Part shown: piece after piece, positions 41,226 through 42,985 of the stretch
How the letters are laid out: each line of letters begins with the position of its first letter
Numbering within the stretch: position 1 is the first letter of the stretch
DNA from: a virus
Strand: one strand, 5' to 3'
Virus record (IMG/VR): IMGVR_UViG_3300036816_000058
Coordinates: 1 to 45,032 of that record
DNA length: 45,032 bases
The notes under the pieces: generated by a model
Database searches by the model: none
Told to the model about the DNA's origin: nothing
What the model saw: the letters and a program-made list of their open reading frames with translations, nothing else
Program-made: the position numbers and the translations under genes

Positions 41226-41236
41226 GTTTTAATAAG

Positions 41237-41366
41237 TTATCAACAGGTTATATACAAAACTAAGTTTTTAGTTGTGGATAATATGAAGAGGAATTAAATT
41301 AAATTAAATGTTGATACAAAAGGTTTTTTTATCAATATACACAAGGGTTTAAAACACTTATCCACA
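41237..41366. other. DnaA-box cluster in AT-rich gap
   Basis: Two perfect DnaA boxes (TTATCCACA) occur: reverse at 41273-41281 and forward at 41358-41366. TTATCAACA lies at 41237-41245, and one- or two-mismatch boxes at 41309-41317 (reverse) and 41329-41337. Between them is an AT-rich run with repeated AATTAAATTAAATTAAA (41292-41308). This combination is typical of an oriC or plasmid origin. It lies in the 218-base gap between endolysin and the DUF3800 gene. No initiator gene is adjacent. Confidence 0.6.
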
Positions 41367-41443
41367 GGTTCGCCCCTGTTTCTAGGTTGCGTAATGACTT
41401 ATTAGAGAGTAAAATTTGATTATTGCTAACTAGGGGTGTGGAT

Positions 41444-42202
41444 ATGTTTTATATTGATGAGTCTGGCAGCATGCCGACGTTTCGCGATATGCGATACAAA
41501 AATAGATATTTTGTCATTGCTTTTGTTCATACTAATGACCCAAGACACCTCAAGAGTACATTTAAAAGGGCAATGAGCAAGTTAAGGAGAGATTTTCCTG
41601 ATTTTTTTGCAAACTTAAAAGATAGTAGAGAATGCAAAGGTTCAGAGATGCTGCCATTTATGAAAGCATATCTTTTAGAGAAAATTATTAATACCACTGA
41701 TGTTCGAATTGGTCATATGGTAGTTGACAACACAGAAATTGCGCAAAAATTCAGAGATAAACCAGGTAGATCTTTTAACTATTTAATTAAAATCATTATG
41801 GAAAATTTTAATTTATCCCCTCAAGACATTCAGTGCCTGCGATTAAATATTGACAATAGAAATACTGCTCTAGAAGGTCTGAGTGAACTTGAGGGTTATT
41901 TGTACAATGAGCTAGTTTTGGAGAAAGGTATTATTAATGAAGCCAAGGTGCATTATCATGAATCTTGTGATAATTTTAATATCCAAGTTGCAGATTTGAT
42001 TGCAAATGTTATCTACCAAAGATTCCGTTATAAAGGACTCGGTTTCCCTAATTATGTTGATGTGAAGGCTGATGATTTTAAATACCATCCTTATACTTTT
42101 GAATACTTATATCAATATATAAAGCCGAAGATAGTAGTTCCATTTGTGTACCCAGTTCGCAATGATTTAATCATGCAAGCAGGTGCCACGTTTGAGTTAT
42201 AA
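41444..42202 (+). CDS. DUF3800 protein (RNase H-like fold)
   Basis: 252-aa protein from ATG 41444 (AGGGGTG seven bases upstream). The family marks are the N-terminal FYIDESGS with its acidic pair, ECKGSEM, LRLNIDNRN and the C-terminal NIQVADLIANVIY, which together form the acidic active site of DUF3800, an RNase H-like group. Much more AT-rich than the phage core and placed after lysis genes, so a moron. DUF3800 genes are often associated with conserved structured RNAs, and such an RNA follows directly here. Nuclease activity and substrate are unproven. Confidence 0.88.
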   Translation: MFYIDESGSMPTFRDMRYKNRYFVIAFVHTNDPRHLKSTFKRAMSKLRRDFPDFFANLKDSRECKGSEMLPFMKAYLLEKIINTTDVRIGHMVVDNTEIAQKFRDKPGRSFNYLIKIIMENFNLSPQDIQCLRLNIDNRNTALEGLSELEGYLYNELVLEKGIINEAKVHYHESCDNFNIQVADLIANVIYQRFRYKGLGFPNYVDVKADDFKYHPYTFEYLYQYIKPKIVVPFVYPVRNDLIMQAGATFEL

Positions 42203-42228
42203 TTATTCTTAGAATATGATAAAATAAT

Positions 42229-42257
42229 TTGACTAATAGATGTCCAGATGTTATTGT
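42229..42257 (+). promoter_or_regulatory. Promoter of the structured RNA
   Basis: TTGACT (42229-42234), exactly 17 bases, then TATTGT (42252-42257) preceded by TG (extended -10). It lies 27 bases after the DUF3800 stop, so the RNA can be made apart from the mRNA. Predicted start is about 42264. Confidence 0.65.
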
Positions 42258-42263
42258 AAAGTC

Positions 42264-42429
42264 ACAGCATTGAAGTAAGTCCTCAACTAGCGCGAACAAT
42301 CACGTAAGCTGCCTGTGTGGTAGCCGCACTGAGGCTAGAGTGTTGTCCCTCTAAGAGGGTAGATTTATACATAATCCGAAGGCATTGGTGAAAAAATCCC
42401 CATCAGCATAGTTCTGGTAGGGATTTTTT
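42264..42429 (+). ncRNA. Structured non-coding RNA next to DUF3800
   Basis: About 165 nt with no supportable reading frame. Visible pairings are CCTCA (42281) with TGAGG (42330), GCTGCC-TGTGT-GGTAGC (42308-42324) and CCCTC-TAA-GAGGG (42347-42359). An alternative CTAGC/GCTAG (42287 and 42334) could form a pseudoknot or switch. The 3' end is a long terminator hairpin, AAAAAATCCC (42391) with GGGATTTTTT (42420). The own promoter, terminator and DUF3800 neighbour recall the DUF3800 RNA motifs found by comparative genomics (from memory). I cannot say which subtype, if any, it matches. Confidence 0.7.
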
Positions 42430-42541
42430 CTGCGTTGACGTTTACAAGAGTTTACGTGGGCTTTGACAAACATCACCACAACCATTTCACGAGAAATTCA
42501 GGAAAGCAATCGATAATCCCAAGCGCTTGGAAATATTAAAA

Positions 42542-42573: not shown

Positions 42574-42608
42574 GCGTTCATCAAAACATAGACATGAAGA
42601 ACAACCTA

Positions 42609-42637
42609 TTGACTAAAGTAAATAGATGTGGTATATT
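42609..42637 (+). promoter_or_regulatory. Strong promoter of the candidate toxin
   Basis: TTGACT (42609-42614), 17-base spacer, TATATT (42632-42637) with an upstream TGG (extended -10). The start point, near 42644, falls on the GGGAGGTGA ribosome binding site, so the mRNA would have almost no leader. Confidence 0.75.
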
Positions 42638-42660
42638 ATTTATGGGAGGTGAGAACAAGG

Positions 42661-42780
42661 ATGAAGAAAAAAAGGAGAAAGAAAAAGGAACTCCCGGTGG
42701 ACAAGCTGGTTACGCTTCTCACGGCCATTGTCAGCTTGCTTACCGCAGTAGTCAACCTCATCATAGTCCTTCGCCGTTAG
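42661..42780 (+). CDS. Small hydrophobic peptide, candidate type I toxin
   Basis: 39-aa peptide with a very basic start (MKKKRRKKK) and one membrane helix (KLVTLLTAIVSLLTAVVNLI), ending RR. GGGAGGTGA lies eight bases upstream. Size, charge and single helix match type I toxins of Bacillota (Fst/TxpA/BsrG-like in layout, not clearly homologous). A convergent antisense promoter (42856-42861) faces its 3' end, and a nine-bp hairpin (42798-42828) lies in the shared region. Toxicity is inferred only. Confidence 0.6.
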   Translation: MKKKRRKKKELPVDKLVTLLTAIVSLLTAVVNLIIVLRR

Positions 42781-42789
42781 GCGGGACTT

Positions 42790-42849
42790 GAGGGTAGCAC
42801 GGTCGGTTAATCCCAAAGGCCGACCGTGTGAGTTCCTTAATCCTTCTCT
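42790..42849 (-). ncRNA. Predicted antisense RNA of the toxin (3' end unknown)
   Basis: On the minus strand TATAAT (42861-42856) with upstream TGC forms an extended -10 promoter; a start near 42849 is expected. The RNA would run into the toxin mRNA's 3' part and includes the perfect hairpin CACGGTCGG/CCGACCGTG. I see no clear terminator, so only the part next to the promoter is marked. Confidence 0.4.
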
Positions 42850-42889
42850 TCCCTTATTATAGCATGACAAGAAGGGAGCATGTATATTC

Positions 42890-42985
42890 ATGAGTATGTC
42901 AAAAATAACTAAAGTGACTTTGATCATTAGCTTGCTTTCGTTGGGTCTAAGTGTCGCTACAATGGTAATATTGATTACGAGGTGA
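42890..42985 (+). CDS. Second small membrane peptide
   Basis: 31-aa peptide (AAGGGAG upstream of ATG 42890) that is essentially one hydrophobic helix: KVTLIISLLSLGLSVATMVI. It lies just beyond the antisense promoter and ends five bases before the next gene. It may be a second toxin-like peptide, a holin-like peptide, or a leader coupled to the HTH gene. Confidence 0.5.
   Translation: MSMSKITKVTLIISLLSLGLSVATMVILITR

Follow-up and report, generated by a model that had tools for sequence, protein, structure and literature searches.

The RNA motifs named after DUF3800 reportedly originate from Weinberg et al. 2017, and we know of no established function for them. In classical type III toxin-antitoxin systems, a tandem-repeat RNA is located upstream of the toxin gene. 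Antitoxin-like RNAs can also be borne by phages, for which PhiTE pseudo-ToxI is a precedent (PMC3475682). In the case of AbiF/RCd22 of the C. difficile prophage phi027, the RNA has been shown to neutralise the toxic protein by direct binding (PMC12373285). In the CRISPR types V-A2 and VI-F, DUF3800 proteins, for which an RNase H fold has already been reported, are joined to TPR proteins and Cas effectors by fusion or linkage (PMC10910872; PMC12669027). Within the open literature naming DUF3800, we found no experiment on a DUF3800 protein/RNA pair, and DUF3800 is not named in Majorek 2014.

Here, we analysed a stretch of 45,032 nt (positions 1 to 45,032 of the IMG/VR virus record IMGVR_UViG_3300036816_000058; hereafter the window), in which a DUF3800 gene is followed by a structured RNA on the same, plus strand. 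The gene (41444-42202, ATG start codon) lies directly downstream of holin and GH25 endolysin genes and encodes a protein of 252 aa. Residues 2-192 match DUF3800 (PF12686) with 52.7 bits, above the gathering score of 21 (E=9.8e-14), and no other Pfam domain is present. The IDESG and QVAD motifs described in a first-pass annotation are found as D5-E6-S-G and IQVAD, the latter including D184. PADLOC 2023 gave weak matches, to DUF3800_VII for the window protein (E=0.0019) and to the candidate PDC-S51 for a Streptococcus relative (E=3.6e-6). The stretch that separates the endolysin gene from the DUF3800 gene contains, at 41230-41370, several words resembling DnaA boxes (TTATCAACA, TTATCCACA and reverse). 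Further downstream, the region 42600-42985 holds two short hydrophobic frames (42661-42780 and 42890-42985), the former preceded by a 10/12 promoter match with TG; both are reminiscent of small membrane peptides, type I toxins for example, and searches of Pfam and NCBIfam returned no match for either.

The window locus resembles AbiF/RCd22 in being prophage cargo near a holin gene and in having a small structured RNA beside a single protein gene, the AbiF RNA likewise with a SigA-type promoter and a terminator (PMC12373285). In both cases, the motif was first known by comparative genomics (abiF RNA motif RF03085). By contrast, AbiF belongs to the Abi_2 proteins and has a link to Cas13, and its RNA is located upstream, contains the motif twice and is in part transcribed together with the gene; moreover, neutralisation was shown for AbiF/RCd22 (PMC12373285), while we infer it for the DUF3800 pair. 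In the window, the protein matches DUF3800 alone, not Abi_2, and the RNA has no Rfam match, RF03085 included. With ToxIN and its kin, the locus shares the arrangement of a protein and a structured RNA as one mobile unit; however, the protein is RNase HII-like rather than ToxN-like, and the RNA is usually single, downstream and equipped with its own promoter-like site. The window RNA is single and downstream of the gene, and two copies are found in few loci. Compared to the DUF3800 proteins of CRISPR V-A2 and VI-F, which belong to the same Pfam family and are reported to have an RNase H fold (PMC10910872; PMC12669027), the window protein is stand-alone and has its own RNA rather than TPR and Cas partners.

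The conserved core of the RNA comprises 83 nt (42264-42346), as defined by a covariance model match and covariation. A closing helix P1 (42264-42272/42338-42346) encloses P2 (42279-42285/42330-42335), P3 (42289-42292/42325-42328), the small hairpin Px (42293-42294/42303-42304) and the hairpin P4 (42308-42313/42319-42324). Near-invariant unpaired motifs are AGUAAGU (42274-42280) and UAA (42305-42307), and P4 carries the loop UGUGU (42314-42318). The core is followed by a lineage-specific 3' extension (42347-42388) with the hairpin CCCTC/GAGGG and then CCGA...TTGG; in a comparison by eye of the window with two relatives, both hairpins recur in that from Paenibacillus (L029) and the second also in L001. 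A predicted fold at 42389-42430 forms the intrinsic terminator.

The first-pass annotation had read this pairing-rich non-coding stretch as a structured RNA and had named covariation in related loci as a test. Thermodynamic folding of the 83-nt core alone is not significant (z=-0.80), and with the terminator z is -2.35. The first sign of conservation came from a relaxed blastn search of the intergenic stretch against phages: in the Listeria and Streptococcus suis records, the match spanned 20-23 nt immediately past a DUF3800 relative. A search of genome contigs with the single window protein found no relatives and an alignment was needed as query; alignment-based protein searches gave 55 loci in species genomes and 34 in IMG/VR, in addition to some plasmid loci. 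The covariance model R1, built from 27 clostridial and Bacilli RNAs of which none is from the lineage of the window, finds the window RNA in full length at exactly 42264-42346 (50.7 bits, E=2.2e-11) and also finds the relatives L029 and L001. With default filters, R1 misses most Listeria and all Streptococcus RNAs, which the broader model R2 recovers; R2 scores the window RNA at 75.8 bits. In a joint alignment of 38 homologues, 89.2% of the cells in P1-P2-P3-Px-P4 are paired, compared to 62.5% in shuffled and at most 48% in slid controls, a comparison in which the structure is favoured over the slid controls because alignment and structure derive from the same 38 sequences. In this alignment, 24 of the 27 pairs have changed on both sides, and the covariation score is 0.71 vs 0.24. 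The R1 match is unaffected by this bias because the window is absent from that model. On this comparative evidence, namely the held-out match and the strong covariation rather than fold energy, we regard 42264-42346 as confirmed to be the core of a real structured RNA. A pattern match in another locus (L018) lies inside a coding frame and is probably due to chance.

The same annotation had proposed that the RNA has its own promoter and a strong terminator. The promoter-like site (42229-42257) consists of TTGACT (42229-42234), a 17-nt spacer and TATTGT (42252-42257) with TG at 42249-42250, and the core starts 7 nt past the -10 element, at 42264 as originally proposed. This site scores 9/12, and the region contains 14 promoter-like matches vs 11.4 expected by chance. 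Before 78 homologous RNAs, however, a promoter-like pair stands at the same fixed spot, scoring at least 8/12 in 94% of the cases (31% in shuffled sequences) and at least 10/12 in 60% (1.7% shuffled). Thus, the window promoter is credible because of this conservation and not because of its own score. Terminator-like hairpins follow 49 of the 78 homologous RNAs vs 2% in shuffled sequences. The RNA mostly begins 27-95 nt past the stop codon (median 44); in one locus (L039) it is upstream of the gene, and in Gemella (L034) the two are convergent. These two arrangements, together with the promoter and terminator pattern, make it unlikely that the RNA is a 3' UTR; by its pattern, it appears to be an independent transcription unit.

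How does this RNA relate to the published DUF3800-I motif (RF02969)? Rfam searches of the window with gathering and relaxed thresholds returned nothing meaningful, and RF02969 gave no match even at E≤10. RF02969 scores a relative of the window RNA (L051) at 33 bits and the second RNA of another locus (L031) at 35.2 bits, both below its gathering score of 44.2. DUF3800-I aligns to L051 over its full length, and this alignment covers P2, P3, Px and P4; in R1 and R2, the window RNA matches at the positions of this core. In other words, the two types have in common P2, P3, the small hairpin Px, UAAG and the hairpin P4, and several of the Lactobacillaceae loci that we examined also have DUF3800-I close to a DUF3800 gene. 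They differ in that DUF3800-I has a local 5' hairpin where the window family has the closing helix P1, and in that R2 gives members of RF02969 no more than 18.8 bits. The RF02969 loci of Lactobacillaceae are beside a more distant DUF3800 type or have none within 1.5 kb. Based on these comparisons, the window RNA type and DUF3800-I look like sister types. The locus had been put forward as an undescribed system; its core is shared with a published motif, while the subfamily itself falls outside the RF02969 model.

Essentially every relative of the gene that we found is accompanied by the RNA, in Paenibacillus, Listeria phages, Streptococcus satellites, Enterococcus, Peptoniphilus and Lachnospiraceae. 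Of 48 genomes with the gene, 47 give a match to the RNA model, and the 48th locus (L033) is N-masked just downstream. The locus thereby passes, as it does for covariation, the check on the RNA beside other DUF3800 genes that the first-pass annotation had set; no genome with the gene and readable flanks was without an RNA. On a Ligilactobacillus plasmid (L119), the RNA is below threshold, and a divergent RNA of 16 bits was recognised by eye; in a single case (L058) the gene has no RNA nearby, and there is one elsewhere in the same genome. In a blind two-way test on the same 299 Lachnospiraceae genomes, the gene was found in 6, the RNA in 8 and both in 5 (P=1.7e-8), and the sixth gene has directly downstream a divergent RNA of 31.4 bits with a TTGACA promoter-like site. 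Two loci from Peptoniphilus and Anaerococcus (L060 and L061) have in common a block of 901 bp at 95% identity that comprises the gene, the RNA and the terminator and nothing beyond, and a third locus (L055) ends at the same 3' edge. Across 30 loci, protein and RNA distances correlate with r=0.89, a value reached in 0 of 2000 permutations. Co-occurrence, cassette boundaries and co-divergence thus support, at the level of comparative genomics, the earlier proposal that protein and RNA form one unit; the pair is carried by prophages, as had also been proposed, and by satellites.

Several loci deviate from the usual arrangement. Two tandem RNA copies are present at L032:5711-5947, L037:5752-6034, L050:5739-5977, L053:5714-5950 and L158:1501-1713; in L037, L050 and L053, the gene-proximal copy is AT-rich, with a lower score and a promoter-like site that is weaker. 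The DUF3800 gene on a Ligilactobacillus salivarius megaplasmid is immediately preceded by three salivarius-1 RNAs (RF03030; L119:2284-2737, minus strand). In L133/L071 (Aedoeadaptatus coli), the DUF3800 gene is broken up, giving two open frames, and the adjacent RNA is intact. Two records titled Corallococcus (L036) and Alistipes (L077) contain a clostridial-type locus and are probably mislabelled or contaminated bins.

An RNase-H-type fold, which had been suspected for the protein, is supported as a predicted fold. The AlphaFold2 model of the window protein (pLDDT 85.9) has RNase HII (1eke) as its top match among solved structures in Foldseek (prob 1.00, E=1.7e-4), and the separately predicted model of a distant relative (L065; pLDDT 92.8) also has 1eke as its best solved-structure match (prob 1.00, E=4.2e-5), with a TM score vs 1eke of about 0.5 for both models. 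A profile comparison with RNase HII gave no significant sequence homology (hhalign E=0.34, on a par with column-shuffled controls), and an hmmsearch of the PDB with the protein profile found nothing, RNase HII included. Because the profile comparison is not significant, we take the resemblance as a likeness of fold. As in the DEAG motif of RNase HII, a D-E pair is located in strand 1, and D137 and D184 are further acidic residues; RNase HII, by contrast, is a housekeeping enzyme, whereas the window protein is mobile cargo. D5, E6, D137 and D184 are invariant in 43 sequences, as are E63, K65, N96, N112, R139, N140, S174, Q181 and N188, and the four acidic residues are candidate catalytic residues.

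A search of 1195 genomes with the RNA model alone identified 26 RNA loci, with the gene adjacent in 19 and absent in 7, of which one (L149) is at a contig end, and some of the genomes are possibly incomplete metagenome bins, from which the gene may be missing. In the genomes of the seven gene-less RNAs, no relatives of the gene were found at the search threshold. Several RNAs that lack the gene have an intact promoter-like site. RNAs without the gene are also found in two IMG/VR prophages (L011 and L022) and on two prophage-like contigs of a Lactobacillaceae genome (G1262), and in one locus (L154) an open frame in the endolysin position immediately precedes the RNA. In the Listeria prophage L011 (8764-9965), a weakly HATPase-like gene and a DUF4325 gene occupy the DUF3800 slot and the RNA is kept, i.e. 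a cargo swap. In G1262, R2-type and DUF3800-I-type RNAs lie in tandem (L172:2200-2480, minus strand; L173:5640-5880), with no DUF3800 gene; by eye, each RNA has a separate promoter-like site, and upstream of the tandem RNAs in L173 is an Abi_2-like frame (RNxxxHN). In principle, the gene-less RNAs could be deletion remnants, a simpler alternative for some cases, with L160-L162, where the RNA adjoins an integrase, as candidates. Because the RNA can exist without the protein and the protein not without the RNA, the pattern is that expected of antidote and toxin, and this one-sidedness suggests that the RNA is the enzyme's antidote. Among the roles of guide, substrate and inhibitor considered in the first-pass annotation, it favours the inhibitor.

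Based on these data, we suggest a model in which, by analogy with AbiF/RCd22, the locus is a type III-like toxin-antitoxin or abortive-infection module, and to which we give an even chance of being correct. In this model, prophages, satellites and chromosomes would carry a two-part cargo module, and the DUF3800 protein, with its predicted RNase HII-like fold, would be a metal-dependent nuclease. The RNA, made from its own promoter, would bind the nuclease via the conserved unpaired motifs of the RNA and keep the enzyme inactive. If the RNA supply drops, either because the element is lost or because infection by another phage shuts off transcription or leads to degradation of the RNA, the nuclease would be freed and would halt growth or phage replication. 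The predicted RNase HII-like fold, the conservation, the linkage, the promoter pattern and the gene-less RNAs count for such an RNA-restrained nuclease; that the RNA is downstream and usually single, unlike in classical type III loci, counts against it. Nuclease activity, RNA binding, inhibition, toxicity and phage protection are what we infer from this combination. More tentatively, the nuclease might be neutralised by a stand-alone structured RNA such that prophages with the RNA alone carry decoys against the nuclease of other elements, with the tandem RNAs on the two prophage-like contigs of G1262 as a possible example; we consider this extension and its example, taken together, conceivable but doubtful.

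Tight gene-RNA linkage and co-divergence would also be expected if the RNA were an obligate cofactor, i.e. part of an RNA-protein complex in which a scaffolded or RNA-activated nuclease acts on invading nucleic acid without a programmable guide. The near-invariant unpaired motifs suit protein binding in this case too, and DUF3800 proteins occur with CRISPR effectors (PMC10910872; PMC12669027). A pure cofactor, however, gives no reason for RNAs to be retained where the gene is absent, several of them behind an intact promoter-like site, and we judge this reading unlikely, if still worth serious attention. A different matter is a guided nuclease, in which the RNase-H-like protein would be led to its target by base pairing of a segment of the RNA. 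RNase H-like folds serve many guided nucleases, and variation does occur in some unpaired columns of J23 and of the Px loop. Yet there are neither repeats nor spacer arrays, we found no spacer-like region, and Px, the variable hairpin, either is short or is base-paired itself. Mean entropy is lower in unpaired than in paired columns (0.83 vs 1.25 bits); AGUAAGU, UAA and parts of UGUGU are nearly invariant, and variation lies largely in compensating helices and the Px loop. Because the main unpaired motifs are near-invariant and the variable helices compensate, recognition by a protein fits better than a guide, and the guide role raised in the first-pass annotation now appears very improbable.

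The position of the RNA shortly past the stop codon would suit a regulator or substrate of the gene, such as a processed 3' end, an autoregulatory element or an antisense RNA, rather than a partner in defence or addiction. The RNA's own promoter pattern, its upstream and convergent positions in L039 and L034 and its occurrence without the gene argue against this, as does the comparison of matched and mismatched RNA/gene pairs, in which matched pairs were no better in complementarity to the start of the gene; we rejected antisense pairing at this site and regard the regulator or substrate reading as a whole as improbable. Finally, gene-less RNAs in phage cargo slots (L011, L022, L154) might indicate that gene and RNA are unrelated cargo sharing a mobile-element slot by chance. 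Given the blind co-occurrence in the 299 genomes, the co-divergence and the cassette boundaries that enclose exactly the gene and the RNA, such a coincidence is hardly credible.

The family defined here is a wider Bacillota group outside the Rfam model, in which gene and RNA are shared between loci as a cassette of ~900 bp. Its protein gains a predicted RNase HII-like fold with testable residues, and its RNA an antidote-like asymmetry relative to the gene. Phages, satellites and chromosomes are linked through these RNAs, which may be inhibitors or counter-inhibitors. If true, a class of RNase HII-fold nucleases neutralised by RNA would provide the first function for DUF3800 RNA motifs.
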